A DNA stretch of 64,000 bases from the NCBI RefSeq assembly GCF_011038965.1, contig NZ_JAAKEB010000003.1, positions 62,001-126,000 of the forward strand, given 5' to 3'. Below are positions 3,506 to 59,340 of the stretch, in pieces. Within the stretch, counting starts at the first letter, position 1, and every line of letters begins with the position of its first letter. Source of the stretch: Adlercreutzia sp. ZJ141. Its GTDB lineage: Bacteria; Actinomycetota; Coriobacteriia; Coriobacteriales; Eggerthellaceae. A program made the translations under genes and the position numbers. The notes under the pieces were generated by a model. That model was not told the DNA's origin and searched no databases. It saw nothing but the letters and a program-made list of their open reading frames with translations.

Positions 3506-6223
3506 GTGACCGAGGCAGTGAAGCGTGTTTACGCGTTCGGCAAAGATGCACAGGGTAACAACGTTACCGAGGGAAACACGAACATGAAGATGATTCTGGG
3601 AGGCAAGGGTGCGAACCTCGCCGAAATGGCCAACATTGGCCTGCCGGTTCCCCCGGGATTCACCATCACGTGTCAAACCTGCATGGAGTATTCGAATGCG
3701 GGCAACACGTGGCCCGAGGGGGCGCTCGACACTATTGCCGAGTATCGTGCCGATCTCGAGGCCCGTATGGGCAAGAAGATTGGCGACGCCGAAGATCCGC
3801 TGCTCGTGTCTGTGCGTTCCGGTGCGCCTATGTCTATGCCGGGTATGATGGACACCGTGCTTAATCTGGGCTTGAACGATCAGTCCATCAACGGTCTCAT
3901 CAAGCAGACGGAAAACCCGCGTTTCGCATGGGACTCCTACCGTCGCTTCATCCAGATGTTCTCCAACGTAGTTATGGGTCTCGACGGCGATCTGTTCGAG
4001 AATGCCATCACCGCCATGAAGAATGCGCGCGGCGCAGCATCCGACACCGATCTGACCGCTGAAGACCTGCAGCAGCTCGTTGCCGATTTCAAGCAGATCT
4101 TCGCTGAGAACGTGAGCGCCGAAGATTACCCGAGCCTTGTAGTGGACGGTCAGGTTGCCTTCCCGCAGGATCCCATGGTTCAGTTGAAGCTGGCCATCGA
4201 AGCTGTGTTTGGCAGCTGGGGTAACCCGCGTGCGGTGCTGTACCGCAAGCAGAACAAGATTGCCGACGATCTGGGCACTGCTGTAAACGTGCAGTCCATG
4301 GTATTTGGCAACAAGGGCAACACCTCAGCAACCGGCGTAGCCTTCACCCGCAATCCTGCGAACGGTGCCAAGGAATTCTACGGCGACTACTTGGTGAACG
4401 CCCAAGGAGAGGACGTTGTTGCTGGCATCCGCAACACCAGTCCCATCGCAGAACTCAAAAACGTTGAGGGTTTGGAAGAGGCAGGTCGTCAGCTCGAGGA
4501 TATCTTCGTCGTGTTGGAAAACCACTTCCGTGACATGTGTGATATCGAGTTCACCATTGAGCAGGGCAAGCTGTGGATGCTGCAAACCCGTGTGGGTAAG
4601 CGTACCGCCGCCGCCGCGCTTCACATTGCCATTGAGATGGAGAAAGAGGGCCTCATCACCAAGGAAGAGGCTGTCATGCGCGTCGACCCCGAGCAGCTTG
4701 ACCAGCTGCTGCACCCGCAGTTTGACAAGAGCGCAACCTACGACGTGCTCGCTCGCGGTCTGAACGCCAGCCCTGGTGCTGCGGTGGGCGAGGCTGTGTT
4801 CTCTGCCGCCGACGCTGTGGCTGCCGCCGAAGCGGGCCGCAAGTGCGTGCTGGTGCGTTGGGAAACGAACCCCGATGACCTTGCTGGCATGATTGCCGCC
4901 GAAGGTATTCTGACCAGCCATGGTGGTAAGACGAGCCATGCTGCCGTTATTGCCCGCGGCATGGGCGCTCCGTGCGTATGCGGCGTTGAAGCGCTGAAGA
5001 TCGACGCAGAAAAGAAGCAGGCTGCTGTTGCCGGTACCGACGTGGTTATCAACGAAGGTGACATGATCTCCATCGACGGTACGTCGGGTATTGTGGTGCT
5101 GGGCGCTGTTGAGCTGGTGCTTCCCGAGCTTACGGGCGATTTGGACACCATTCTCGAGTGGGCCGACGAATTCCGTACGCTGGGTGTTCGTGCCAACGCC
5201 GACAATCCGGCTGACGCGCAGCTCTCGCGCGACTTTGGTGCGCAGGGCATTGGCCTTTGTCGTACCGAGCACATGTTCTTGGGTGACCGCAAGCAGATTA
5301 TCCAGACGTTCATCTTGAACGAGGATGCTGCTGTTCGCGAAAAGGCTGTCGCCGACCTGTTTGAGGCTCAGACGGGCGATTTCTACGGCATGTTCAAGGC
5401 CATGGATGGTCTGCCGGTTATCGTGCGTCTGCTCGATCCGCCGCTGCATGAGTTCCTGGAGGACGCGCGTGCGCTCGACGTTGAGATTGCCAAGTTGGAA
5501 GCAACGGGTGGCGACGCTGCTGTTATCGCCCAGAAGCGTCAGCTGATGGAGCAGATCGACGGCTTCGCTGAGCAGAACCCGATGCTGGGCATGCGCGGCT
5601 GCCGCTTGGGTATTGTTTATCCTATCCTGCCGGTCATGCAGGTTCGTGCTATCGCCACCGCAATGGCGAAGCTGAAGAAGGAAGGTCTCGATCCGAAGCC
5701 CGAGATCATGATTCCGCTTGTGTCTGTTGAAGCTGAGCTTGCGAAGCTGCGCGGCGTTGCCGAGAAGGCTATTGCCGAGGTTGCCGAAGAGCAGGGTGTT
5801 GAGCTTGAGATTCCTATCGGCACCATGATCGAGCTGCCGCGTGCCGCCGTGACTGCCGACGAGATTGCTGCACATGCTGATTTCTTTAGCTTCGGTACCA
5901 ATGACCTCACCCAGACTACGTTCGGCTTCAGCCGCGACGACGTAGAGGCTGAGTTCGTTCCGCAGTATCTGGCCGAGCGCCTGCTGCCCTACAATCCGTT
6001 CGCAACTATTGATCCGGGCGTTGCTAAGCTCGTGAAGATGGGCGTTGAGCTGGGTCATGAGGGCAATGCCGATCTTATGTGCGGTGTGTGTGGCGAACAC
6101 GGTGGCGACCCCGATTCTGTGAAGACTTTCCATAAGATCGGGCTCGACTACGTGAGCTGCTCGCCGTACCGCGTGCCGCTGGCTCGCTTGGCTGCCGGAC
6201 AGGCTGCACTGGCCGACAAGTAA
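3506..6223 (+). CDS. ppdK: pyruvate, phosphate dikinase
   Basis: PPDK interconverts pyruvate, ATP and Pi with PEP, AMP and PPi; in anaerobes it commonly works in both glycolytic and gluconeogenic directions. The protein is 905 residues, full length for the family. Domains in order: ATP-grasp nucleotide-binding region (residues 1-350), swivelling phosphohistidine domain with GGKTSHAAVIARG (catalytic His near residue 478), and the C-terminal PEP/pyruvate barrel ending with CGEHGGDP, which carries the catalytic cysteine. The threonine just before the catalytic His is the expected target of the upstream DUF299 protein. GTG at 3506 is chosen over the longer frame because GGAGA lies at 3496-3500 and the protein then starts TEAVKRVYAFG, like its homologues. 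A terminator follows. Confidence 0.96.
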   Translation: MTEAVKRVYAFGKDAQGNNVTEGNTNMKMILGGKGANLAEMANIGLPVPPGFTITCQTCMEYSNAGNTWPEGALDTIAEYRADLEARMGKKIGDAEDPLLVSVRSGAPMSMPGMMDTVLNLGLNDQSINGLIKQTENPRFAWDSYRRFIQMFSNVVMGLDGDLFENAITAMKNARGAASDTDLTAEDLQQLVADFKQIFAENVSAEDYPSLVVDGQVAFPQDPMVQLKLAIEAVFGSWGNPRAVLYRKQNKIADDLGTAVNVQSMVFGNKGNTSATGVAFTRNPANGAKEFYGDYLVNAQGEDVVAGIRNTSPIAELKNVEGLEEAGRQLEDIFVVLENHFRDMCDIEFTIEQGKLWMLQTRVGKRTAAAALHIAIEMEKEGLITKEEAVMRVDPEQLDQLLHPQFDKSATYDVLARGLNASPGAAVGEAVFSAADAVAAAEAGRKCVLVRWETNPDDLAGMIAAEGILTSHGGKTSHAAVIARGMGAPCVCGVEALKIDAEKKQAAVAGTDVVINEGDMISIDGTSGIVVLGAVELVLPELTGDLDTILEWADEFRTLGVRANADNPADAQLSRDFGAQGIGLCRTEHMFLGDRKQIIQTFILNEDAAVREKAVADLFEAQTGDFYGMFKAMDGLPVIVRLLDPPLHEFLEDARALDVEIAKLEATGGDAAVIAQKRQLMEQIDGFAEQNPMLGMRGCRLGIVYPILPVMQVRAIATAMAKLKKEGLDPKPEIMIPLVSVEAELAKLRGVAEKAIAEVAEEQGVELEIPIGTMIELPRAAVTADEIAAHADFFSFGTNDLTQTTFGFSRDDVEAEFVPQYLAERLLPYNPFATIDPGVAKLVKMGVELGHEGNADLMCGVCGEHGGDPDSVKTFHKIGLDYVSCSPYRVPLARLAAGQAALADK

Positions 6224-46140: not shown

Positions 46141-47037
46141 TTACTCGGCAAATTGCAGATAAATCGAGGGCGTATCACGATCTCGCTTGATAGGATCGCA
46201 ATACTCTATTACTCCCTCACACGGAACCCAGCCTTGGTACACGCTGGAGTACTCGCCATCTTCACGCTTGCGCATATGGACCATGCGGGCAAAAGGTGAG
46301 CCAGTAAGCTTTAATCCATGTTCCTCCATAAAGCGGAACGACGGCTCGAACATATCCAGACACAGCTCTTTATCGGAGCCCGACAGGAAAAAGGTACTCA
46401 AGCATTTTTGCGTAGGAATAACCACGACGCCGCAATCGGGATCCTCACTTTGCCGCTTGAATTCCTCGAGCCGTTCCGCATGCAAATGCCGCGTTTCTAT
46501 CATCAAGCCGTAACGTAAATTGCCCTCGCCTTTTGGCGGATAGTCGAAAATACCGGCAGAAGCCGCATAAGGGACGCGATCAATCCATTGACGATACAGG
46601 TCAATCTTTTCGTCTAAGATGTTATAACTACGCTGCGCGTCCACAAACAGAACAGTAGGAGAATAGGCCAGACGGAATTTATTGATATTGAGAGCACAAT
46701 CTGCCACCAAACGCTTATCTAGTCGCAATTGTTCCAAGATATGGTTTTGATGGCGAATAGATTCTTCTAATTCGGCTTCCTTTTGTTTAAGACTTCTTAA
46801 AAGCACATCGAAATCTTCTTCTTGGAGTGCAGCAGTGGTCTCAGATAAGGAGTAACCGTATTTCCTGAACATACGCGTTCGGATGAGTATATGCAAATCC
46901 CAAGCGGTGTATAAACGGTATCCGGAACCAGGATCCTTCTGGGGATTGATAATGCCTTCCCGTTCGTAATATCGAATAGCTTCTGAAGAAATGCCCATTA
47001 AATCGGAAATCTTACCGATCTTGTAACGTTTACGCAT
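46141..47037 (-). CDS. MerR family transcriptional regulator with GyrI-like effector domain
   Basis: A 298-residue regulator. The MerR helix-turn-helix lies at the N-terminus (YKIGKISDLMGISSEAIRYYEREGIINPQKDPGSGYRLYTAWDLHILIRTRMFRKYGYSL, residues 5-65), a long coiled-coil helix near residues 80-115, and a GyrI-like ligand-binding domain follows (residues 130-298). It thus resembles BmrR-type activators that sense small organic molecules. It is the last gene of the minus-strand run and the best candidate to recognise the three CTCAA-N5-TTGAG promoters in this cluster. AAAGGGGATTCT precedes ATG 47037. Confidence 0.88.
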   Translation of the reverse strand: MRKRYKIGKISDLMGISSEAIRYYEREGIINPQKDPGSGYRLYTAWDLHILIRTRMFRKYGYSLSETTAALQEEDFDVLLRSLKQKEAELEESIRHQNHILEQLRLDKRLVADCALNINKFRLAYSPTVLFVDAQRSYNILDEKIDLYRQWIDRVPYAASAGIFDYPPKGEGNLRYGLMIETRHLHAERLEEFKRQSEDPDCGVVVIPTQKCLSTFFLSGSDKELCLDMFEPSFRFMEEHGLKLTGSPFARMVHMRKREDGEYSSVYQGWVPCEGVIEYCDPIKRDRDTPSIYLQFAE

Positions 47038-47079: not shown

Positions 47080-48153
47080 TTACACCTGCCGAAATAACAG
47101 ACCTTTCGACTCCACAGAATGCGTAACCACACCATCGTGTTCTAGTTGAGAGAGATGTGAAATGGTTTCTCCCAAGGAAAAGTACTTCTGCTTGAGCGGC
47201 CAATCATCCCAGTTCGAAATAGGACTGCGCCATGAAACCCCTTTCGCGATTTCTACTACATTCGCCGGACCTTCACGCAATACCTGCCTCACTTCTTCCC
47301 CTCGCAAGGCATGATGATTGACTAACTCTATGACGCGTTGGGAAACATTATCGATATTATCCCGATGTCCCGTTAAGCACAAAGACACCTCCAATTTTGA
47401 CAGTTTCTCCGCCGACTGAATGTAGCTAGCGAGCACGTTATCGCCCAAAGCAAAAGATACCACTACAGGTGTGATTCTTGCCAAAATCTGGTCGCCGGAA
47501 ATGAGTATTTTATCCCGTTCGTCGTAGAGACATAGGTGGTCAGGAGAGTGCCCCGAAGTGCGAATGACTCGAAACACCCTGCTTCCTCGCATAAACAATT
47601 CTCCATCACCCAGAACAACAGGCGTCACGTCGCTATAGGGTATCAGCACTTCATCCATGTCGCTGTAGTCTATACTGCGACTGAGGATTTGCCGACGCTC
47701 TTCCTGAGTGACGGGAGGTTTGTCGCAACCCTCAGGCAGCAGTTCATAACCGCCTGACATCCATTCTTGAAAACCCCGATTATGAACGTGATACTCTTTG
47801 AGCAATTGATAAAATCCACCGAAACCTGCATAGAATGTCGTCGATGGACGCTTCACCCTATTAACCAAGCCGCAATGGTCGGGGTGACCATGGGTGAAGA
47901 ATATATCGACATCATCCCAAGAAAGATCTAACGCGCGCAAGCCCTCTGTCAAAGCCTCGTAGCATTCACGCATGTCAAAACCAAGATCGATGACTAAAGG
48001 ACGCGAACCTTCCATGACTACATAGGAGTTAAGCACCTTTAAAGGGTTGCCCGGCATTGGTATGCAGATACGATAGATATTATTTCCTACTAGCTCAGGC
48101 ACGCCAAACTCATACGTCGCTTTCGTGTTTTTACGCCATTGCCTGTTTGCCAT
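47080..48153 (-). CDS. MBL-fold metallo-hydrolase
   Basis: A 357-residue metallo-beta-lactamase-fold protein. The metal site THGHPDHCG gives the H-x-H-x-D-H motif (H88, H90, D92, H93), with TSGHSPDHLCLY and ISGDQILARITP supplying the later His and Asp. The C-terminal 60 residues form a winged-helix-like LACTB2-type tail. Such proteins commonly hydrolyse thioesters (glyoxalase II-like) or other esters. Within this CoA-dependent cluster, thioester cleavage is a fair guess but unproven. GGAAGGAAA precedes ATG 48153. A hairpin at 48183 separates it from etfA. Confidence 0.82.
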   Translation of the reverse strand: MANRQWRKNTKATYEFGVPELVGNNIYRICIPMPGNPLKVLNSYVVMEGSRPLVIDLGFDMRECYEALTEGLRALDLSWDDVDIFFTHGHPDHCGLVNRVKRPSTTFYAGFGGFYQLLKEYHVHNRGFQEWMSGGYELLPEGCDKPPVTQEERRQILSRSIDYSDMDEVLIPYSDVTPVVLGDGELFMRGSRVFRVIRTSGHSPDHLCLYDERDKILISGDQILARITPVVVSFALGDNVLASYIQSAEKLSKLEVSLCLTGHRDNIDNVSQRVIELVNHHALRGEEVRQVLREGPANVVEIAKGVSWRSPISNWDDWPLKQKYFSLGETISHLSQLEHDGVVTHSVESKGLLFRQV

Positions 48154-48233: not shown

Positions 48234-49121
48234 TTAGAGCTTCGCGATGATTTCGGGAAGAACGGTCTTCAAGTCGCCCACCAAGCCATAGTCGGCTTGC
48301 TCAAAGATTGGAGCGTTATTATCCTTATTGATAGCGATGATGGTCTTAGCGGTATTCACGCCAACCATATGTTGCATCTGACCAGAAACGCCAATGCCCA
48401 CATACACTTCAGGAGAAAGCATTAAGCCGGAAACACCAATGTAGGTTTCACGGGGCATCCAATTCACGGCTTCGGTCAGAGGACGAGTGCAGCCTACTTC
48501 CGCATCCATCTTTGCAGCCAGATCGTGCGCCATCTGAAGATCAGCCTCATCTGTGAAGCCACGGCCCGCAGCGATGATATTCTTAGCGACAGTTAGATCT
48601 ACGCCTGCAGGAGGAAGAGCCTCGCGACTGCGCAGCTTCACAGTATCGTCTGCGATATAAGCAATCTCTTCAACAACGTCGCTACCCGAAGGCTGAACGT
48701 CACCGAAGATGGAAGGTGTAGCAGTAAAGATTGCAATGTCGCCAACAGATTTGGTTTTGCGGTTGGCGATACCACCAAAGAATAGGCTCGTAGCAGCAGC
48801 ACCTTCGATGCTCTTGGCGTCGGTGATAACGGAAACGCCCTGCTTGGAAGCCACCTTACCAGCAATAACCTTCATGCGTCGCGTAGGTTCTACCAGTACG
48901 ACTTCGGGGGCTTTGGTGTCGATCAGTTCGGATACCGTAGCAGCTGCAGACTCAACCAGGGCATCCACAGGAACGGTAATGGCATACACGGCATCGGCAA
49001 TTCCCGCAATGCGGGTGGCTTCGCTCAGGGAAACGAGCGCTACCTCATTGCCCAGAGTACGAGCACCAGCGCACAGGCCACGAGCGCCCTTTTCGGTTTC
49101 TGCAATAACAAAAATACTCAT
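48234..49121 (-). CDS. etfA: electron transfer flavoprotein alpha subunit (FixB-like)
   Basis: ETF alpha subunit of 295 residues. The N-terminal half is the alpha/beta domain (ISVFVIAETEKGARGLCAGARTLG), the C-terminal half is the FAD-binding domain with AAGRGFTDEADLQMAHDLAAKMDAEVGCTRPLTEA, YIGVSGLMLSPEVYVGIGVSGQMQHMVGV and FEQADYGLVGDLKTVLPEI. With EtfB it forms the FAD-carrying electron carrier that joins an acyl-CoA dehydrogenase to a FixCX-type dehydrogenase. Start ATG 49121 lies after GGGGGCC; the gene is 12 bases after etfB. Confidence 0.94.
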   Translation of the reverse strand: MSIFVIAETEKGARGLCAGARTLGNEVALVSLSEATRIAGIADAVYAITVPVDALVESAAATVSELIDTKAPEVVLVEPTRRMKVIAGKVASKQGVSVITDAKSIEGAAATSLFFGGIANRKTKSVGDIAIFTATPSIFGDVQPSGSDVVEEIAYIADDTVKLRSREALPPAGVDLTVAKNIIAAGRGFTDEADLQMAHDLAAKMDAEVGCTRPLTEAVNWMPRETYIGVSGLMLSPEVYVGIGVSGQMQHMVGVNTAKTIIAINKDNNAPIFEQADYGLVGDLKTVLPEIIAKL

Positions 49122-49133
49122 TTTTCAGGCCCC

Positions 49134-49886
49134 CTATCGAATAGCCTCAGCGACAGCCGCGACGAACTTGTCGATATCGCCATCGGTACCGGCGTCAAAC
49201 AGCATTTTCTTGCGGGGCGCAGGCTCGGGTGCCAGCGTCTCCATAACTTCAGCGCCTCGGACAACGGTAGCGCCGTCGATCTTCGTCACTGGCTTCTTGC
49301 CAGCCTGCATGATGTCGCGCATGCCGCAGATGCGAGGCAAAGCGATGTCGGGGACAACGGATACGACAGCAGGAAGGGCAATCTCCACCACTTCCTTCTC
49401 GGCTTCCAAGATGCGCTCGGCAACCAGAGCTGAGCCTTCGAAAGAAATCTTACTGACAGCGGTCACGACGGGCAGACCCAAAGCCTCGGCAAGCTGAACG
49501 TCAACCTGCTGAGCGTAGATATCAGCCGAACCATCACCGCAGATAACAACATCAGCAGCTAGGTCTTTCACAGTAGGAGCCAATGCTTCAGCGGTGGCTT
49601 TCGCATCCAAGTCAGCGTAATCATCATTCATGATTAGAGTCAGAGAATCCACGCCACGAGCCAGGATGTTCTTGTTATTTTTGGTGTCGTCGATGGAGGG
49701 GGTTCCGGCAGAAACAACGATGTGGGTAGCGCCTTTCTCGGCTGCGACTAAAGAACCGGCTTCGATGGCATTCAGGTCATAGGTGCTCACCGTGGGGCGA
49801 GCCTTGGAATAATCCAAGGTGCGGTCTGAGGCGATCTGGATGTCTTGGTCGTCGCAGACAATCTTTGCAACAGTAACGATATTCAT
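49134..49886 (-). CDS. etfB: electron transfer flavoprotein beta subunit (FixA-like)
   Basis: ETF beta subunit, 250 residues, MNIVTVAKIVCDDQDIQI...RPTVSTYDLNAIEAGSLVA, with VVICGDGSADIYAQQVDVQLAEALGLPVVTAVSKI, which binds AMP or a second FAD in bifurcating types. ATG 49886 is chosen over a TTG two codons earlier because AAGGTTG is then suitably spaced. It lies between the dehydrogenase and etfA, the usual FixBA/CaiA neighbourhood. Whether this ETF bifurcates cannot be decided from sequence alone here; pairing with FixC and FixX suggests it may. Confidence 0.94.
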   Translation of the reverse strand: MNIVTVAKIVCDDQDIQIASDRTLDYSKARPTVSTYDLNAIEAGSLVAAEKGATHIVVSAGTPSIDDTKNNKNILARGVDSLTLIMNDDYADLDAKATAEALAPTVKDLAADVVICGDGSADIYAQQVDVQLAEALGLPVVTAVSKISFEGSALVAERILEAEKEVVEIALPAVVSVVPDIALPRICGMRDIMQAGKKPVTKIDGATVVRGAEVMETLAPEPAPRKKMLFDAGTDGDIDKFVAAVAEAIR

Positions 49887-49906
49887 AATCAATCAACCTT
49901 CATCTA

Positions 49907-51067
49907 CTAGTTGCGAGCGTACTTTTTGATGATCTGGCGACCAGCAATGTGGACCATGATCTCATCGGTGCCGCCCCCAAACTGAGAACCGCGGGCATCA
50001 ATCCACAAACGGCCCACGCAAGACTCAGTGGTATAGCCGATACCGCCCATAATCTGTAAGGCTTCGGAGCAAACCCAGGTAGACTGCATAGAGATATAGC
50101 GCTTGGCAAGAGCACTATCTAGGCGAACGGACATGCCCTGATCGAATTCCCAAGCGGTCTTCAACAGCAGGCTCTCCATGGTCTGAACGGCAATCTCCAT
50201 ATCGGTGAGCTTCTGCTGGATAAGCTGGAAGCTGCCGAGGGTCTTACCAAATGCCATGCGCTGGCCGGCATACGCGGCCGCTTCTTCCAAGGCAGCTTTA
50301 GCCAAGCCTAAGGAATGAGAGGCCAGCATGATGCGTTCCAGCTCGAAGTTCTTCATAAGCTGTAAAAAGCCCTTGCCTCGCTCACCCAAAAGGGCCGTCT
50401 CGGGAATAACAACGTTGTCCAGATAAACCTCGGAGAAGTTAGTGATTTGCTGGCCGATCTTGTGCAAAGGAGCAAGCGTCACACCTTCTTGCTTGGGGTC
50501 GATAATCCACATGGACATGTTTTTGTTTTCGCGGGCAGGATCTTCGTCTTTGGCGATGACTAGCATGAAGGGAGCGGTCTCGGCCAAAGAAACCATGGTT
50601 TTGGTGCCGTTCAAGGTCACCGTGCCATCGCCGTTCCAATGGGCGGTAGTAGTCATACCCTGATTATCGGAGCCTGCACAAGGCTCAGACAGGGCCAAAG
50701 AATAAGCTTGCTCACCAGTTTCCTCATAGTATTTCATGGCTACGGCCATCAGCTCGGGAGAGGCGAACTCGGACATATCGAACATAGCCAAGCCGTAAGA
50801 CATGAAGGGCATGGTAGCCTTGGCGCTCTTGATAAGTTCGGTCACAACCAGAGCTAGAGTCACCGCATCAGAGGAAACTCCGCCGTACTCTTCGGGAACG
50901 AACATATAACCGAAGCCAGCATCCAGGTATGCCTTACGCACGTCCTCATCGATGTATCGCTGGTTATACCACTTTTTGATTTTCTCTTCGGGGCACTCGC
51001 GAGCTACAAACTCACGCAGATTCTCAAGCATGAGCTCCTGCTCGTCGGTAATACTAAAATCAATCAT
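49907..51067 (-). CDS. acyl-CoA dehydrogenase, CaiA-like (probable enoyl-CoA reductase)
   Basis: A 386-residue acyl-CoA dehydrogenase fold flavoprotein. FAD and substrate regions: ALSEPCAGSDNQGMTTTAHWNGDGTVTLNGTKTMVSLAETAPFMLV, ERIMLASHSLGLAKAALEEAAAYAGQRMAFGKTLGSFQLIQQKLTDME, EALQIMGGIGYTTES. The C-terminus reads GSQFGGGTDEIMVHIAGRQI, where many dehydrogenases have the catalytic Glu in a YEGT motif; here that position is Gly. With EtfAB next door it probably acts in the reducing direction on an enoyl-CoA. ATG 51067 has GGAGGAAG upstream. A MerR-type box lies 80 bases upstream. Confidence 0.9.
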   Translation of the reverse strand: MIDFSITDEQELMLENLREFVARECPEEKIKKWYNQRYIDEDVRKAYLDAGFGYMFVPEEYGGVSSDAVTLALVVTELIKSAKATMPFMSYGLAMFDMSEFASPELMAVAMKYYEETGEQAYSLALSEPCAGSDNQGMTTTAHWNGDGTVTLNGTKTMVSLAETAPFMLVIAKDEDPARENKNMSMWIIDPKQEGVTLAPLHKIGQQITNFSEVYLDNVVIPETALLGERGKGFLQLMKNFELERIMLASHSLGLAKAALEEAAAYAGQRMAFGKTLGSFQLIQQKLTDMEIAVQTMESLLLKTAWEFDQGMSVRLDSALAKRYISMQSTWVCSEALQIMGGIGYTTESCVGRLWIDARGSQFGGGTDEIMVHIAGRQIIKKYARN

Positions 51068-51145: not shown

Positions 51146-51176
51146 ATGTTCCGCCCTCAAATGCTTTGAGAGTCAA
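51146..51176 (-). promoter_or_regulatory. MerR-type promoter for the dehydrogenase-etfBA unit
   Basis: On the minus strand: TTGACT (51171-51176), a 19-base spacer holding the palindrome CTCAA-AGCAT-TTGAG (51156-51170) and GAACAT as -10 (51146-51151). The box overlaps the stop codon of the acyl-CoA ligase gene. It matches the two boxes at 57186-57291. Confidence 0.75.
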
Positions 51177-52872
51177 GGGGTGAAAGCAAGTTTCTGACGG
51201 ATTCTTTCTCCTCTCGCTTCCGCAGTAAAACGCGGTCTTGCTTTCGATTATGAGTAGTCGGAATCACATCAATGAACTCGATATATTTCGGAACCTTATA
51301 AGCAACCAAACGCTTTTTGCAGTAGGTGCGCAACTCGTCTTCGGTTGCAGTAAGACCCCTTTTCAGAACAACAAACGATTTGGGACGTTCTCCCGAATAG
51401 GCGTCGGGGACGCCTATGGTGCAAGCATCGGCTACGGCCGGATGGGTCATAAGACACTCGTCGATATCTTTGGGAAAAACATTAAAGCCGCTTACGACAA
51501 TCATGTCCTTTTTACGATCCACGATGTAAAAGAACCCCTCTTCGTCCATGTAGCCGATATCGCCGGTATACATCCATCCGCCACGGATTGCCTTTGCAGT
51601 CTCTTCGGGATTGTTCCAATAACTCTTCGCAATCTGCTTGCCACGAAAGATGATCTCGCCGCGCTCGCCAGGAGCGCAAGGCGCCAACCCGTTTTGAGGA
51701 TCGACGATGAGCATGTCGATGCCGCTTATAGGAACCCCGATGCTGCCTAGCTTCCCTCCTGTAAGCACGGGATTAGCGCTCACAAAGCCAAAACTTTCGG
51801 ACATGCCGTAGCTTTCAGTGAAGCACGCATTTGTACTGGATTCTAGAATGCTCAGCGTTTTCAAGGAGATAAACGAGCCGCCGAAAATCACAAAATCCAA
51901 ATCATGGTACGAACATGTCGATAAACGCTCATCAAGACTTACGCGGTGAAGCAGCGTGGGAAGCGTTGCCCACATGGTGGGATGGTATTTTTCAAAGGAG
52001 TCGATGATTTCGTCGCAGTGTACGCCCTCTGCAAAGATACAACTTCCTCCGCATATAATCTGCCAATGTACACCATAGTTGATACCCATGATGTGCGTTA
52101 GAGGCATGCAGATGAGTACGCTGGGGTCGGGCTTTGTCAAAGCGGGAGCCGCCCAATGATGCATGGTTTTGATTTCTCGCACCATTTCACCTTGAGTTGC
52201 GCAAACACCCTTGCTTACGCCGGTGGTTCCGCCAGTGAACAGCAAAATTGCATTATCCGAGGGGAGTACCTCAACCGAAGGCTCACATGCAGAAGCCTGA
52301 CTCAGCAGCTGCTTGTAACAATATACGATTGCTGTTCCTGTCGATTCTGGCTGATCAGATGGTCGATCGAGTACGATAACTGAACGAACCGAAGGGCATT
52401 TTCCCGTCTTTAAGGCGTCTAGTATTTTATTAATGTGCTCTTGTTCGATAATCACAACGCTCGATGAAACAGTATTAATCGAACCGCATATTTCATAACT
52501 AGTACAGCGCTGATTATAGGCAGCAGCCACTAAACCCGTTTTGTAGCAAGCCATGAAGCCATAGATGATTTCCGGCCGGTTCGATACCACCAAGCTAACG
52601 CGATCTCCCTTCTTCAAACCAAGGGCGAGCAGAGCATTGCCGAGACGGTTTGCCTGCATATCGGCCTCTTCGCGCAGAATCACCTGATCTCCGAAGTAAA
52701 TAAAGGGATCGCGACGCGCGCGATCAACAAGATCGATCATCGTCTGCTTAATGGTGGTAGTAGGAACTTCGTAGCTCCTGTCAACCGCTGTATCATACTG
52801 CTTCGTCCAAAGGGGGTTGCATTGCTTAACTGCTTGCTCTATCAATGAAAAGCTATCTTGAGAGTCGTTCAT
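51157..52872 (-). CDS. acyl-CoA ligase, CaiC-like
   Basis: A 571-residue AMP-forming acyl-CoA synthetase, resembling CaiC-type crotonobetaine/carnitine-CoA ligases. Motifs: LLFTGGTTGVSKGVCAT (ATP loop), YGMSESFGF, GWMYTGDIGYMDEEGFFYIVDRKKDMIVVSGFNVFPKDIDE and the C-terminal THNRKQDRVLLR with the catalytic lysine region, in which the usual TGK is changed to NRK. It primes the cycle by ATP-dependent activation of the acid. AGAAGGTAC precedes ATG 52872. The substrate cannot be told from the sequence. Confidence 0.88.
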   Translation of the reverse strand: MNDSQDSFSLIEQAVKQCNPLWTKQYDTAVDRSYEVPTTTIKQTMIDLVDRARRDPFIYFGDQVILREEADMQANRLGNALLALGLKKGDRVSLVVSNRPEIIYGFMACYKTGLVAAAYNQRCTSYEICGSINTVSSSVVIIEQEHINKILDALKTGKCPSVRSVIVLDRPSDQPESTGTAIVYCYKQLLSQASACEPSVEVLPSDNAILLFTGGTTGVSKGVCATQGEMVREIKTMHHWAAPALTKPDPSVLICMPLTHIMGINYGVHWQIICGGSCIFAEGVHCDEIIDSFEKYHPTMWATLPTLLHRVSLDERLSTCSYHDLDFVIFGGSFISLKTLSILESSTNACFTESYGMSESFGFVSANPVLTGGKLGSIGVPISGIDMLIVDPQNGLAPCAPGERGEIIFRGKQIAKSYWNNPEETAKAIRGGWMYTGDIGYMDEEGFFYIVDRKKDMIVVSGFNVFPKDIDECLMTHPAVADACTIGVPDAYSGERPKSFVVLKRGLTATEDELRTYCKKRLVAYKVPKYIEFIDVIPTTHNRKQDRVLLRKREEKESVRNLLSPLDSQSI

Positions 52873-52942
52873 GGATTGTACCTTCTACCTCTGAACACGT
52901 TTTCAATTCGCACGTCCCCTTGGAATCGTGCGGGAACTTGGC

Positions 52943-54205
52943 CTATTCCTCTTCAGAATTGATCTTTTTCCCGAAATAGAATGCCAAGTAACCGATGAGG
53001 AAAGTGACGAACATCATGCCAATGCCGATGGAAAGCGTTAGCGTGTAACTGCCTGTGATGTCGATGATCGCACCCCAGATCGCGGACGTGAATGCAGAGC
53101 TTAAAGTGGCCACTGTGGACACCACGCTAAATACTCGGCTGTAGTCTTTGGAACCAAAGATTCCGCGGGTCATCAAAGAGGTGGTAACCGTGGCGCCAGC
53201 AAAGAAGATACCATAGAAAAAGCCGCCGATGTACAGGAAGTAGATCCCCGATCCTCCTAAGAACGTCATAACCGAGATGCCGATGATGCCGCAAGCAACA
53301 GCCGTCACCACACCCATTTTGACATTGATGTCATTAATGTAGCCAAGCAGCAGCTTACCAATCATTTGACCTACCATGATGGCGGAAGACACAGTTGACG
53401 CGGCGAAGATCCCAAACGCTAGTGATGAGACATATGAAGGAATATAGTAGTTTAGGGTGATTCCCACATCCATCATGCCTGCGTAAAGCGCCACCAGCCA
53501 TAATGCCGGAGTACGGAGCGCCTGATTGAACATGATTCCCTTTACTGGCGAAACAATACCTTCCTCGGGAACAGACTCCTTATTCTTCGCACTTACCCAA
53601 GGCGCCAGACTCATGTCTTCGGGCTTATTACGAATTAGGAAAATAGCACTTGGAAGACCAACAAGGGCGGTAATCAGGCAAAAGACCAGATACCCCGTGC
53701 GCCAACCGAAGTTCTCAATAACCCAACCACCCAGAGGATTAAATACAACAGCGCCCACACCGGTAAAGCACAGGCAGATACCGACAAAGAAGCCTACTCG
53801 ATCCTTAAACCAACGGTCGATCATGGTGGGAACCATCAAATAGAGCAAGATGGAGTTGGCGCAGCCGATAAGCACGCCAGAGCAATAGAACTGCCATATA
53901 TAGTTGTAAACCGACATGAGCGAAATGCCCACCGAAACCATGGCGCAGCACCCCGTAAGAACCCACCGCGCGTTAAAGCGATGGAGTATTTTGCCGCCGA
54001 AAATCATAGAAACGGCCATTGCTAAATATTGAACAGACATATAGGTGCCAAAGGCGCCCGCACTAATACCTAAGTCGGTACCGGCAGGCGTATAAAAAAT
54101 GCCCATGGTGTTAAAAGAAAGCGTCACAGTGGAAAAACAAATGGCGCAGCATGCAGCAAACACCAGAAAACCCCGATGGATACGATGACGTTGAACTTCG
54201 ACCAT
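52943..54205 (-). CDS. MFS transporter, OFA-type (first copy)
   Basis: A 420-residue major facilitator with about 12 helices, of the oxalate/formate antiporter (OFA) type: HRGFLVFAACCAICFSTVTLSFNTMGIFYTPAG, GKILHRFNARWVLTGCCAMVSVG, LMVPTMIDRWFKDRVGFFVGICLCFTGVGA. OFA carriers often exchange an organic acid for its product. ATG 54205 follows GAAAGGACTCTC; the longer frame is not supported. It is clearly related to the second carrier at 54452, so the cluster has two paralogous carriers. Possible roles are uptake of substrate or exchange for reduced product. Confidence 0.86.
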   Translation of the reverse strand: MVEVQRHRIHRGFLVFAACCAICFSTVTLSFNTMGIFYTPAGTDLGISAGAFGTYMSVQYLAMAVSMIFGGKILHRFNARWVLTGCCAMVSVGISLMSVYNYIWQFYCSGVLIGCANSILLYLMVPTMIDRWFKDRVGFFVGICLCFTGVGAVVFNPLGGWVIENFGWRTGYLVFCLITALVGLPSAIFLIRNKPEDMSLAPWVSAKNKESVPEEGIVSPVKGIMFNQALRTPALWLVALYAGMMDVGITLNYYIPSYVSSLAFGIFAASTVSSAIMVGQMIGKLLLGYINDINVKMGVVTAVACGIIGISVMTFLGGSGIYFLYIGGFFYGIFFAGATVTTSLMTRGIFGSKDYSRVFSVVSTVATLSSAFTSAIWGAIIDITGSYTLTLSIGIGMMFVTFLIGYLAFYFGKKINSEEE

Positions 54206-54410
54206 GAGAGTCCTTTCTGTTGCGATAATCGTAAGGGGAACAAAAGGAATAGGTGAGGAGAAGCTGTTCATCAGATGGGATACGCTCTGTTATGTCGCCC
54301 TATCCATTCTGATGAGAAGCTTTTCCGGAAACGATCACAGTCAGGTAACTTTGGGGAATACGCTTTTAGCACCGTCCTACCCGCTTAAGCTACAACTGCA
54401 ATAGAAGAAG

Positions 54411-54442
54411 ATCCCCAACCCCACAAGAGTGGGGTTGGGGAT
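54411..54442 (-). terminator. terminator between the two MFS genes
   Basis: ATCCCCAACCCCAC (54411-54424), loop AAGA, GTGGGGTTGGGGAT (54429-54442): a perfect 14-bp stem just after the second carrier's stop. On the minus strand it is followed by CTTCTTCTATTG. It separates the caiB-MFS unit from the downstream genes. Confidence 0.82.
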
Positions 54443-54451
54443 GATGCTTAC

Positions 54452-55744
54452 TTAGCGCTTTTCGCGAGGAAGCTTCTTTGCAACAGCAAGGCCGCCGAAT
54501 GCGAAGACGAAGGCTATAATCATGATGGTGATGTCGGTCAGGTAAGCACCGGTGAAAGATCCGGTAACATCCTTGATAACGCCCCAGATAGTCGAACCAA
54601 AAGCTGCAAACAGCGCGCAAACGCCTGTGATGTATGCGTAAATCTTTGAGTAGTCTAGATTGCCGAAAGCAAGGCGTGCGATAGCGGGCGTTGTAGTGGT
54701 AGCAGAAGCGAAGAAAACGCCGAACAACGCACCGCCGACATACGCCAGATAAATGTTTGCCCGAACGCCCCAGAGGACCAAAGCCAATCCAACGATACCA
54801 GAAAGCAGGCCGAAGATAACAGAGCCTTGAACGGATTTGTCATTGGTCCAACCCAAAACAACCTTGCCAATTAGGGAGCCGAACATAACAACAGAAGAAA
54901 GAGTTGCACCAACCATCATAGGGTCGGCACCGCCAATCAGGGTGGGATCCAGAGACTTTACGTAGCTGGGCAGATAGAAGTTCATGGTAAGGCCGAAGTT
55001 AACACAGGCGGCATAGACGGCGATAAGGATCAAAGCGACAGGCTGCTTCAGGGCGGTACCGACGGTAACGCCTTCAACAACAGCGGATTTTGCAGCATCT
55101 GCCGCAGCAGCTTCGGCAGCAGCATCATAGCCGACAGGCATGAGACCCTTGTCTTCGGGGCGGCTCGCAATAAGCAACGCACAAGGAATGCCCACGACCA
55201 GGGTAATAGCAGCGTAGACCATGTAAGCAGTGTGATAGCTGGAGGAGGTGATGATAGAGGTGGCGATGGGGCTGAATGCCATACCGCCGATACCGGTCAT
55301 TGCCATACCAATACCGACCAGAGTGGAGACATTGCGCTTAAACCAACGGCCAAACATAACGGGAACTAGCAGATACAGAATAATAGAGTTGCCAACGCCC
55401 AGCAAAACACCAGCAACGTAGAACAGAATGATAGTGGTCGCCTGGGCCATGATAACGAACGCCACGCCTATACAGGCAACGCAAGCGGTCAAAACCCAGC
55501 GAGCATTAAGTTTATCGAACAAGCGGCCAACCTGCAGGATACACAGGCACACGAACATCGACAGGTAAACGATGGTCATGTACATACCAACTGCAGCAGA
55601 ACTGCCGCCTGTTAGCTCAGCGGCAACCGAAGTATAGAAAACAGAGGCTGCATTAAAGGTAAAGCAGCACGGGAACAACATGATGAGACAGGAAGCGATA
55701 AACACTACCCAACCGTAGTGAAAACCACTCTTTTGTTCGGTCAT
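54452..55744 (-). CDS. MFS transporter, OFA-type (second copy)
   Basis: A 430-residue major facilitator with about 12 helices and an OFA-like N-terminus: FHYGWVVFIASCLIMLFPCCFTFNAASVFYTSVAAELTGG, LQVGRLFDKLNARWVLTACVACIGVAFVIMA, YLLVPVMFGRWFKRNVSTLVGIGMAMTGIGGMAFSP. The loop GYDAAAEAAAADAAKS is alanine-rich. It follows the CaiB-like gene and is followed by a strong terminator. ATG 55744 has GAAAGGC upstream. Two paralogous carriers could separate import of substrate and export of product. Confidence 0.86.
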   Translation of the reverse strand: MTEQKSGFHYGWVVFIASCLIMLFPCCFTFNAASVFYTSVAAELTGGSSAAVGMYMTIVYLSMFVCLCILQVGRLFDKLNARWVLTACVACIGVAFVIMAQATTIILFYVAGVLLGVGNSIILYLLVPVMFGRWFKRNVSTLVGIGMAMTGIGGMAFSPIATSIITSSSYHTAYMVYAAITLVVGIPCALLIASRPEDKGLMPVGYDAAAEAAAADAAKSAVVEGVTVGTALKQPVALILIAVYAACVNFGLTMNFYLPSYVKSLDPTLIGGADPMMVGATLSSVVMFGSLIGKVVLGWTNDKSVQGSVIFGLLSGIVGLALVLWGVRANIYLAYVGGALFGVFFASATTTTPAIARLAFGNLDYSKIYAYITGVCALFAAFGSTIWGVIKDVTGSFTGAYLTDITIMIIAFVFAFGGLAVAKKLPREKR

Positions 55745-55890
55745 AATGAAGCCTTTCTTTGTCGTAGACTTACCCCTCTTTGTGGGCAAGCCCTCATAAA
55801 AACTACGTAGAAGCCCATCCCTAAGCAACCAACGTATCTGAGGTTTCGGAGCCGAAGATTCGCAAGCCTTAAGCTCCTACAACGGTAAAA

Positions 55891-57123
55891 CTAACGGGAG
55901 AGGGACAGATCCCAGTCTTTGTTGATAACGCCCTTGTCGTAGAAGGTTTTAATTTGCTCGTCGGTGTATCCGAGCTCGTGCAGAATCTCTTCGTTGTTCT
56001 CGCCGAAACTGGGAGCTGGACGCCACACACGACCGGGATTGTTCTTAAACTTGGGCAACGGACCCACAGCACGCAGCTTCGTGCCTTTAACGGTCTCCCA
56101 TTCCTCGATAACATGGCGAGCCTGAACGTGGGGGTTGTTTTCGACGTCTTCCCAGCTGTTCACCTTGGAAACAGGTGCGCCACCGGCCAACATTTCAGCT
56201 TCCGCCTCGTCGCAGGTGCGCTCCAACAGCCAGGCGCGTAGAGCAGCCTCGAATGCCTTGCCAGACTCCGATTCGACGTTGTACAAGCCGATCTTCGCTG
56301 GGAACAGTTCTGAGCCGTACTCCAAACCGATGACTTTGCATACCTTTTCCAGCGTGGAAGCGCCAGAGAAGCAGCAGTACAGGATTTTGCCATCTTTACA
56401 GGGAAAACCGCCCCAGCCCGCAATCATGGACTTTTCGCCCGTCTTAGGGAATTCCTTATGGAATGTGAAGTAGTCGGTAGCGAAGATAGAGCAACGCATC
56501 ATAAGCTCATACTGGGCAACGTCGATAGATTCACCCTTGCCCGTGCGCTGTGCGTTGTGGACGCCAGCCAAGCAAGCCATTGCCGTCCAGATAGCAGTAA
56601 TATAGTCGGCAACGTAAGGGCCTACGGCATAGGGAGGAGTAGCACCGCCGTTCTGGTTTTCCCACATGTAACCAGAGAATGCCTGAGCTGTTGCGTCAAA
56701 GCCCCCACGGGTTACGTACTCGGGCAGACCGGTTTGGCCATAGCCGGAAATGTGGGCGATAACCAACTTGGGGTTCACTTCCCACAAGGTTTCATCGGAA
56801 AGATTCAAGCGATCAAACTGGCCGCCTTTCGAGGACTCGATGAAAATATCGGCATCCTTCACCAAATCAAGAACGATCTGACGACCCTCTTCGGACCTCA
56901 AGCGAATGCCTATGGCGCGCTGGTTGCGGCGCTCAGACTCAGGCTGTATGTTGTGAAGCGTACGGGTATAGTCAGGAGCGTCTGCGTTTTCAATCCAAAC
57001 AACATCAGCACCATACTCGCTAAAAAAGGTTGGACCCAAAGGACCCGCCAGAGATGAAGATGCGTGTACAACCCGCAGGTCGTTCAGCAAACCGAATTCT
57101 GGCTTTGCTTGATTTTTCCACAT
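55891..57123 (-). CDS. CoA transferase, CaiB/BaiF family
   Basis: A 410-residue class III CoA transferase. LGPTFFSEYGADVVWIENADAPDYTR, NQRAIGIRLRSEEGRQIVLDLVKDADIFIES, HISGYGQTGLPEYVTRGGFDATAQAFSGYM are family signatures; D143 in GGFDATAQ is in the place of the catalytic Asp of the family (position inferred by motif). It would move CoA from the reduced product to fresh substrate, so activation costs no ATP after the first round. ATG 57123 follows AAAGGAG. It is the first gene of the minus-strand arm and has its own MerR-type promoter. Confidence 0.9.
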   Translation of the reverse strand: MWKNQAKPEFGLLNDLRVVHASSSLAGPLGPTFFSEYGADVVWIENADAPDYTRTLHNIQPESERRNQRAIGIRLRSEEGRQIVLDLVKDADIFIESSKGGQFDRLNLSDETLWEVNPKLVIAHISGYGQTGLPEYVTRGGFDATAQAFSGYMWENQNGGATPPYAVGPYVADYITAIWTAMACLAGVHNAQRTGKGESIDVAQYELMMRCSIFATDYFTFHKEFPKTGEKSMIAGWGGFPCKDGKILYCCFSGASTLEKVCKVIGLEYGSELFPAKIGLYNVESESGKAFEAALRAWLLERTCDEAEAEMLAGGAPVSKVNSWEDVENNPHVQARHVIEEWETVKGTKLRAVGPLPKFKNNPGRVWRPAPSFGENNEEILHELGYTDEQIKTFYDKGVINKDWDLSLSR

Positions 57124-57185
57124 AGAAACTCCTTTTCTATTACCTGAGATAACCGTCAGCGATGATTTCTCCACCGCTTACCGAG

Positions 57186-57216
57186 AGTGTAAAACCTCAA
57201 ATCGCTTGAGAGTCAA
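57186..57216 (-). promoter_or_regulatory. MerR-type promoter for the CaiB-like gene
   Basis: Minus strand: TTGACT (57211-57216), spacer of 19 bases with CTCAA-GCGAT-TTGAG (57196-57210), -10 TACACT (57186-57191). A long 19-base spacer with a central palindrome is the classic MerR-activated design. Confidence 0.82.
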
Positions 57217-57260
57217 CGCCATTCGTTGAGAGAAGAATCGGAAGTTTTTCAAATTTCCCG

Positions 57261-57291
57261 TTGACTCTCAACCGTTTTGAGACTTGAAAAT
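57261..57291 (+). promoter_or_regulatory. MerR-type promoter for fixC
   Basis: Plus strand: TTGACT (57261-57266), 19-base spacer with CTCAA-CCGTT-TTGAG (57267-57281), -10 GAAAAT (57286-57291). It is divergent from the CaiB-like promoter; the two -35 boxes are 44 bases apart. Confidence 0.75.
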
Positions 57292-57358: not shown

Positions 57359-58675
57359 ATGGAAGAGCGCGATTTCGACGTTATCGTCGTGGGCGCTGGC
57401 TGCGCTGGGGCAGTAGCCGCATACGTCGCCGCCAAGCAAGGCAAAACAACCTTGCTTATCGACCGCGGCGAATATGCCGGTGCGAAAAACATGACCGGCG
57501 GTCGTATGTACGCTCACGCATTGAAGAAAGTCATCGCCAAATACGAGGGCGAAGACTTTGACTGGGAAAACGACAATCCCTTTGAGCGTAAGATCACTCA
57601 TGAGCGCTTATGTTTGTTAGACCCTCAAAGCGCTGTAACCTTTGACCACAGCTCTGACAACCTGCGCAAGCCCACCAGCGATTCCTATTCGGTTCTGGCG
57701 ACCACGTTGGATCAGTGGCTGTGTGACAAAGCGGAAGAAGCGGGTGCCGAATTGATCTTCGGTATCCCCGTAGAAGAGTTAGTCAAAGATGAATCGGGCG
57801 CCATCATCGGCATCCGTGCAGGCGAAGACACCTTTACCTGTCATGCGGTCATCTTGGCTGAAGGTCAGAATGCTCTGCTAGCGGAGCGATCCTTGGGCGT
57901 TCCTCGCACCAAGGACAATCAAATGGCGGTAGGTATCAAGGAGGTCTTCGAGCTTGACTCCAAGACTATCGAGGATCGCTTTCTGTGTCCTGAAGGCGAA
58001 GGCGCAGCCATGCTGTTCGTCGGTGACTGCACCCATGGCGTTGTAGGCGGCGGCTTCCTATACACCAACAAGACTTCTATCTCCCTGGGCCTGGTGGCAA
58101 CTATCAAGGAGCTCTCAGAATCTGACACCACCATTTACCAGGCGTTCGACGATTTTAAGAAGCACCCGGCGGTAGCCCCTATCATCCGCGGTGCCAAGAT
58201 GGTCGAGCACTCTGGTCATATGGTGGCAGAAGGTGGCTACAACTCCATCCCTGAGACCTGCTACGATGGCTGCCTCATTGCAGGCGACGCTGCCAATCTG
58301 TGTATGAACCTAGGTTATCAGGTGCGTGGCTTGGATTTCGCTACCGCCACTGGCCAGTTCGCTGCCGAAGCGGTCTGTGCCGCAATCGACGCCGAAGATG
58401 TCTCCAAAGCCGGTCTAGCATCGTATAAAGTAGCGATGGATAGCTCTTTCGTAACACAAGATATGCGCACCTTCAAGGATTGGCCCTCCACCATGGAGCA
58501 TTGGGAGAGCATGTTTACTGACTATCCCAAGATGCTGGGCGAAATATTCGACTGCTTATTCGTTGTCGATGGCAAGCCCCAAGAGCATCTGGTGAAGCGT
58601 CTGATGCCCATTATCAAGAAGCGCGGCCTGTTTAAGACCGGCAAAGAAATCATGAAGGCGGTGAAATCTCTCTAA
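57359..58675 (+). CDS. fixC: FAD-dependent oxidoreductase FixC-like
   Basis: A 438-residue flavoprotein of the FixC/ETF-quinone oxidoreductase family. FAD-binding DFDVIVVGAGCAGAVAAYVAAKQGKTTLLIDRG, GAKNMTGGRMYAH, AVILAEGQNALLAERSLG, GCLIAGDAANLCMNLGYQVRGLDFATATGQFAAEA. It exchanges electrons between EtfAB and a quinone or ferredoxin-like partner. ATG 57359 is chosen for AAGGAG at 57348-57353; the longer frame crosses the promoter. fixX follows, overlapping the stop (TAATG). Confidence 0.92.
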   Translation: MEERDFDVIVVGAGCAGAVAAYVAAKQGKTTLLIDRGEYAGAKNMTGGRMYAHALKKVIAKYEGEDFDWENDNPFERKITHERLCLLDPQSAVTFDHSSDNLRKPTSDSYSVLATTLDQWLCDKAEEAGAELIFGIPVEELVKDESGAIIGIRAGEDTFTCHAVILAEGQNALLAERSLGVPRTKDNQMAVGIKEVFELDSKTIEDRFLCPEGEGAAMLFVGDCTHGVVGGGFLYTNKTSISLGLVATIKELSESDTTIYQAFDDFKKHPAVAPIIRGAKMVEHSGHMVAEGGYNSIPETCYDGCLIAGDAANLCMNLGYQVRGLDFATATGQFAAEAVCAAIDAEDVSKAGLASYKVAMDSSFVTQDMRTFKDWPSTMEHWESMFTDYPKMLGEIFDCLFVVDGKPQEHLVKRLMPIIKKRGLFKTGKEIMKAVKSL

Positions 58676-58986
58676 TGAAGACGTTAAGGCCTATCACATG
58701 CCGAGTTGACGAGTTGATTTCGGTCGACAAGTTTGCCGTTGATGAGGAAAATGCCCATATTGAATTGGCTTGCGACAGCCTTTCCGAGCTTGATGCTGTC
58801 GAATTCGGTAAGCTAATCCGCGTCTGTCCCGCTGGACTGTATCGCGAAGACGAAAATGGTGAACGTGCCTTTGATTACGCTGGTTGTCTAGAATGCGGTA
58901 CCTGCCGTATTGCCTGCGCAGACACTATCGTAAAAAAATGGAATCAGCCCTCCGCATTCTGCGGTGTTTCGTATCGCTTCGGCTAG
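58675..58986 (+). CDS. fixX: ferredoxin-like protein FixX
   Basis: A 103-residue ferredoxin-like FixX subunit. Cysteine motif: RVCPAGLY and CLECGTCRIACADTIVKKWNQP, giving ligands for one 4Fe-4S cluster. The TAATG overlap to fixC implies translational coupling. FixX binds FixC and passes electrons. The protein ends in FCGVSYRFG, typical of FixX, so it is full length. Confidence 0.9.
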   Translation: MKTLRPITCRVDELISVDKFAVDEENAHIELACDSLSELDAVEFGKLIRVCPAGLYREDENGERAFDYAGCLECGTCRIACADTIVKKWNQPSAFCGVSYRFG

Positions 58987-59288: not shown

Positions 59289-59340
59289 GACTCCGGCCAT
59301 CCATCCTACGTTAGCGGGATGGATGGCCGGAGTCAGTGTT
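59289..59340 (+). terminator. 18-bp hairpin closing the fix unit
   Basis: GACTCCGGCCATCCATCC (59289-59306) pairs perfectly with GGATGGATGGCCGGAGTC (59317-59334), followed by AGTGTTTTCC. It lies between the convergent small cysteine protein and DUF2442 genes. Confidence 0.8.

Follow-up and report, generated by a model that had tools for sequence, protein, structure and literature searches.

What controls the acyl-CoA redox genes that cluster in this part of the Adlercreutzia sp. ZJ141 genome? The window (the whole 64,000-nucleotide stretch of DNA analysed here) contains three promoter-like sequences that a preliminary description had recognised as a matching set, and which it proposed to be a regulon of the MerR-family protein encoded in the same cluster. 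We asked whether the three sequences are operators of that protein, and if so what they are likely to switch on.

Three promoter boxes and the genes behind them

Each of the three predicted promoter/operators spans 31 nt and has the same layout: a –35 hexamer TTGACT, the palindrome CTCAA-N5-TTGAG inside a 19-nt spacer, and a –10 hexamer. Box 1 lies upstream of the CoA-transferase operon on the minus strand (57186..57216; read from 57216 to 57186, TTGACT CTCAAGCGATTTGAGGTTT TACACT). Divergent from it, on the plus strand and upstream of fixCX, is box 2 (57261..57291; TTGACT CTCAACCGTTTTGAGACTT GAAAAT), while box 3 (51146..51176, minus strand; read from 51176 to 51146, TTGACT CTCAAAGCATTTGAGGGCG GAACAT) lies upstream of the acyl-CoA dehydrogenase operon and covers the stop codon of the ligase gene (51157-51159). 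The preliminary description had placed all three correctly to the base and on the right strands, and we find, as it did, the 19-base spacer with its palindrome in every box and the overlap of the third with the ligase stop. The –10 hexamers are weak, agreeing with the consensus at three or four of six positions.

The box is rare. In the whole genome (2.29 Mb, 98.6% complete) there are three exact occurrences of TTGACTCTCAA-N5-TTGAG, all of them in the cluster, against 0.0006 expected from base composition; the genome scan called for by the preliminary description thus shows that the box is not widespread upstream of unrelated genes. Allowing up to three mismatches, the window holds four matches (0.34 expected), one being a true box read on its opposite strand, and none of 100 shuffled windows reached four. 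At the same tolerance the genome adds one site with a single mismatch, located in a glycosyltransferase-like gene, together with three-mismatch sites that occur at the level of a reversed-pattern control (5 forward, 8 reverse). Beyond the true boxes, sites with at most one mismatch in the present genome (C1:62960) and in three others (G037, G049 and G175), have neither a MerR gene nearby nor a –10 at 19 nt and were set aside as chance occurrences; a perfect palindrome at 4454 was rejected as a further box because no –35 adjoins it. Pairwise identity among the three boxes is 68-77% over 31 nt and falls to 22-30% in the 40 nt on each side. Since the flanks are unrelated, the boxes are not a recent duplication or a copied segment, and on the flank comparison together with the genome counts we reject an origin by chance or as a repeat.

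Reading away from box 1 on the minus strand, the genes are a class III (CaiB-like) CoA-transferase (55891..57123), two MFS transporters (transporter 2, 54452..55828, and transporter 1, 52943..54271) and an AMP-forming acyl-CoA ligase (51157..52872). Box 3 is followed on the same strand by an acyl-CoA dehydrogenase (49907..51067), the beta (FixA/YdiQ-like, 49134..49892) and alpha (FixB/YdiR-like, 48234..49121) subunits of an electron transfer flavoprotein (ETF), both recognised by Pfam and NCBIfam profiles, an MBL-fold metallohydrolase (47080..48153; Pfam Lactamase_B) that sits between etfA and merR, and merR itself (46141..47037). On the plus strand box 2 precedes a FixC-like ETF:quinone oxidoreductase (57359..58675) and a FixX-like ferredoxin (58675..58986), the latter named by position, its homologues following fixC in relatives in which the end of the cluster is intact. 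The likely start of the CoA-transferase is the ATG at 57123 and not the GTG at 57174, which is about 5 nt from the predicted transcription start; for fixC the ATG at 57359 is likely, and the dehydrogenase ATG at 51067 has AGGAGG just 5' to it. All three likely starts have good Shine-Dalgarno sequences and leave leaders of roughly 55-75 nt.

Membership of the CoA-transferase in class III is clear (PF02515, 277.4 bits against a cut-off of 23.3). Its nearest model is the L-carnitine CoA-transferase CaiB (NF002914), at 379.8 bits and below the equivalog cut-off of 413; the dehydrogenase likewise scores 477.8 bits against its nearest NCBIfam model, PRK12341, below the equivalog cut-off of 537. With both enzymes under their cut-offs, assignment of a substrate from family names was rejected. 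In gene content the cluster resembles the caiTABCDE-fixABCX and ydiOPQRSTD systems of E. coli, with which it shares a CaiB-type CoA-transferase, acyl-CoA dehydrogenase, ETF, FixCX and a ligase; it differs from them in its sub-equivalog scores, in having two MFS transporters and a MerR, and in that there is no CaiT or CaiD among the identified genes.

No terminator-like site was found on the minus strand between box 3 (51176) and the end of merR, so merR is probably part of the boxed transcript. By position, then, the boxed set would comprise the CoA-transferase, both MFS transporters, the ligase, the dehydrogenase, ETF, the MBL-fold gene, merR and fixCX. The preliminary description had taken the boxes to mark an inducible core consisting of the CoA-transferase, fixCX and the dehydrogenase–ETF unit. 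Those genes are indeed boxed, but by position the boxes serve the whole cluster rather than a core of it, and the whole gene set for handling a carboxylic acid is probably induced together.

The regulator and its orthologous clusters

The MerR-family protein, the predicted binder of all three boxes, is the only one encoded in the window, as had been noted. It consists of an N-terminal helix-turn-helix (HTH; Pfam MerR_1, PF13411, 49.3 bits against a cut-off of 21.6), a 42-residue helix (residues 76-117) of the kind that forms the antiparallel dimerisation helix of the family, and a C-terminal domain at about residues 119-276. The helix and the C-terminal fold are taken from an AlphaFold2 model built from six orthologues (pLDDT 79.9, pTM 0.62). 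Over residues 1-274 the model matches BmrR (3iao; Foldseek E 1.6e-14, Z 14.9), residues 119-276 match E. coli GyrI (1jyh; Z 10.1), and the C-terminal half matches the C-terminal domain of EcmrR (6wl5; Z 9.7). The predicted fold is thus BmrR-like and supports the GyrI-like effector domain previously proposed, even though this domain is invisible to Pfam, which finds the HTH alone and no GyrI-like match at E 0.001; at the sequence level, PDB entries align chiefly with the HTH half. A search for related loci with the single MerR sequence as query returned none, distant homologues being recovered with an alignment as query, and no relatives were found in viral contigs.

Searches of 138 genomes of the family and, with a profile, of 398 of the class Coriobacteriia identified a MerR orthologue in six: the present genome, G040 (51-53% identity), Ca. 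Rubneribacter avistercoris (G023), Ca. Aveggerthella excrementigallinarum (G112), Parvibacter caecicola DSM 22242 (G017) and an uncultured Parvibacter (G139). All six carry the CoA-transferase, MFS, ligase, dehydrogenase, etfBA and fixCX genes in one neighbourhood (that of G112 ends inside fixC, at the end of its contig), and in all six, the window and five of five relatives, the box stands 70-100 nt ahead of the CoA-transferase gene. The box is exact in G023, has one mismatch in G112 and two in G040, G017 and G139. A second, exact box precedes the dehydrogenase of G040, in the same place as box 3 and wholly intergenic; overlap with the ligase stop is therefore not what preserves the sequence of box 3, and coding constraint as its cause can be ruled out.

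Two other genomes, G174 and G049, encode an orthologue of the CoA-transferase (at least 57% identity, the next being at most 46%) with further genes of the cluster beside it. Both lack the MerR orthologue, and no box turns up, even at four mismatches, in the 20 kb surrounding each CoA-transferase gene. The box accordingly accompanies the regulator in 6/6 clusters that have it and 0/2 that do not (Fisher p = 0.036), in a small sample of eight clusters from one family that are not phylogenetically independent. Absence of the box from orthologous clusters, which would have told against a regulon, is not what we find: every cluster that keeps the MerR orthologue keeps the box. This co-occurrence, combined with the promoter geometry, supports the proposal that the MerR of the cluster would control the three promoters as one regulon.

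Box number follows operon structure. In G023, G112, G017 and G139 a single box heads one run of genes ending in fixCX; G040 has two boxes and the present genome, the only one in which fixCX lies on the other strand with its own box, has three.

Several smaller observations concern these loci. Among the genes recognised in the G174 cluster are only the CoA-transferase, MFS, ligase and dehydrogenase. The CoA-transferase orthologue of G049 (G049:C1:77332-78552) contains one in-frame TAG, and this locus, having neither MerR nor box, is possibly a decayed cluster. In the few flanking reading frames scanned beside the two MerR-less clusters, the only alternative regulator was an Xre-type HTH gene near that of G174. 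The orthologous clusters of G040, G023, G112, G017 and G139 yielded no homologue of the MBL-fold gene; weaker homologues lie near two more distant CoA-transferase loci (L146 and L158). A contig-end fragment in G159 (C166:3037-3280) encodes a close MerR orthologue (63-64% over 76 residues), and the CoA-transferase orthologue not found in that genome is probably missing through an assembly gap.

The box beyond the cluster, and other explanations

The box also adjoins distant homologues of the regulator, in a Sporomusaceae genome (L084, 35% identity), in Thomasclavelia saccharogumia (L087) and in four Clostridia MAGs (L095, L096, L097 and L100); none was found near six other distant homologues (L086, L089, L091, L093, L094 and L098). 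Within the Eggerthellaceae, six box-like sites outside the cluster (L148-L153) have another MerR gene no more than about 2.5 kb away and four (L154-L157) have none nearby. A hexamer with A at its second and T at its sixth position stands 19 nt after the –35 in 21 of 21 MerR-linked boxes, each of which thereby carries its palindromic operator inside a spacer of the 19-20 bp typical of the family, and in 0 of 4 unlinked look-alikes. At no other spacing is this pattern shared by all the linked boxes. For sites outside the window with at most one mismatch the corresponding counts are 7/7 and 0/4 (p 0.003), the sites having been chosen by their box and not by their –10. Because the –10 pattern is tied to MerR linkage, we conclude that the element is a MerR-type promoter whose use extends beyond one regulator.

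Three promoters, two of them divergent, might be supposed to be nothing more than ordinary promoters, or a repeat arisen by chance or duplication, that answer to no specific regulator. By a generic sigma-70 scan the region is not enriched in promoters, and for that reason promoter matches alone prove little. Nevertheless, three exact sites against 0.0006 expected, unrelated flanks, and the recurrence of the box at the same place in other genera together with its absence where the MerR is missing make this explanation barely credible. A different concern is raised by the wider use of the box: since other MerR proteins use it in other genomes, the box by itself cannot name its binder, and at least two MerR paralogues are encoded elsewhere in the present genome (contigs C2 and C3). 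One of these could work the boxes while the MerR of the cluster has some other target. However, no box within three mismatches occurs near either paralogue, their recognition helices differ from those of the box-linked MerRs, and presence of the box tracks the cluster MerR across the eight clusters; we regard control by a paralogue as very unlikely.

The mode of action can be questioned in the same way. MerR proteins are described, in a passage of PMC9909328, as normally repressing and as becoming activators upon a trigger, and the boxes overlap the promoter, so that the protein might be mainly a repressor relieved by its ligand. A spacer of 17 nt would suit a pure repressor, whereas the 19-nt spacing is strict in 21 promoters and the –10 hexamers are weak. 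The strict spacing makes most sense if the spacer is remodelled, and simple repression is therefore an unlikely account. The reading that we prefer, and consider very probable, is that the three boxes serve as operators for the BmrR-like MerR encoded at 46141-47037, which would be activated by a ligand and act through the 19-bp spacer to switch on three transcripts.

A proposed ligand-responsive switch and its relation to known systems

A 19-bp spacer exceeds the length that the sigma factor recognises best; regulators of the MerR family, once they have bound their ligand, compensate by kinking and untwisting it, which restores the alignment (PMC8113463, PMC7722741, PMC1526738). By analogy, a MerR dimer would sit on CTCAA-N5-TTGAG, flanked by a good –35 and, 19 bp from it, a weak –10; binding of a ligand to the GyrI-like domain would cause the regulator to kink and untwist the spacer and so render the promoter usable by RNA polymerase. 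Three transcripts would be induced together: CoA-transferase–MFS–MFS–ligase, dehydrogenase–ETF–MBL–merR, and fixCX. As merR itself is in a boxed operon, positive autoregulation is likely, the second transcript supplying the feedback. As ligand, the acid that is imported, or the CoA ester formed from it, is the most likely candidate, given that the boxed genes would jointly take this acid up, activate it and convert it by redox chemistry.

The closest parallels are BmrR and EcmrR, the latter studied on a test scaffold TTGACC-CTCCCCTAAGGGGAGGGTT-TAGATT (PMC8113463). The window boxes share with theirs the 19-bp spacer, half-sites that occupy positions 7-11 and 17-21 when the first –35 base is position 1 (centre 14) and the outer CTC/GAG, and the predicted fold of the MerR resembles BmrR over residues 1-274 (Z 14-15). 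They differ in that CTCAA/TTGAG replaces CTCCC/GGGAG, the inner bases having become AA/TT, in that identity between the proteins is only about 15%, and in that the boxes front acyl-CoA redox genes and not a multidrug pump. Regulons of the metal-sensing family members MerR, CueR, CadR and ZntR likewise have a palindrome within a 19 or 20 bp spacer, and the site may recur at several promoters under one regulator (Permina et al. 2006, PMC1526738); there, however, the effector part is a short metal-binding tail rather than a GyrI-like domain (assigned here by fold), and the regulator gene usually belongs to a divergon rather than lying inside a boxed operon. No published account of the regulon was found in the literature searched. 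It is a new, well-supported example of a well-known type of switch.

Most relatives have one box heading a single operon, and the present genome would represent a state in which that operon has been split, with a box on each piece. A more far-reaching reading, which we offer tentatively, is that a drug sensor of BmrR fold has been turned into a sensor of an enoate or acyl-CoA intermediate, inducing a CaiB/dehydrogenase/ETF/FixCX pathway in Eggerthellaceae, autoregulated and acquiring a new operator with each split of the operon. Clusters with one, two and three boxes in any case provide a natural series for how control by a regulon may be kept during the break-up of an operon. A previously unassigned Eggerthellaceae acyl-CoA redox cluster is now linked, by prediction, to a single regulator with a precisely defined operator; its substrate can therefore be sought as an inducer with a simple reporter.

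Some minor features of other loci and of the transcripts are worth recording. In L095, L097 and L100, promoters with TTGATTCTCAA-N5-TTGAG diverge from the MerR gene and have TACAAT or TATACT as –10 at 19 nt. The similar MerR proteins at L148, L151 and L153 form a second conserved set in three Eggerthellaceae, with boxes of the form TTGACCCTC(A/G)AC-N4-GTTGAGGGT about 2-2.5 kb from the MerR gene. In the window a strong 14-bp hairpin with a weak T-tail (54411-54442, minus strand; –35.1 kcal/mol for the segment, z –4.0) lies between the two MFS genes and may attenuate control of MFS transporter 1 and the ligase from box 1, and a 19-bp terminator-like hairpin 3' of fixX (59289-59334, plus strand) is the likely end of the fixCX transcript.
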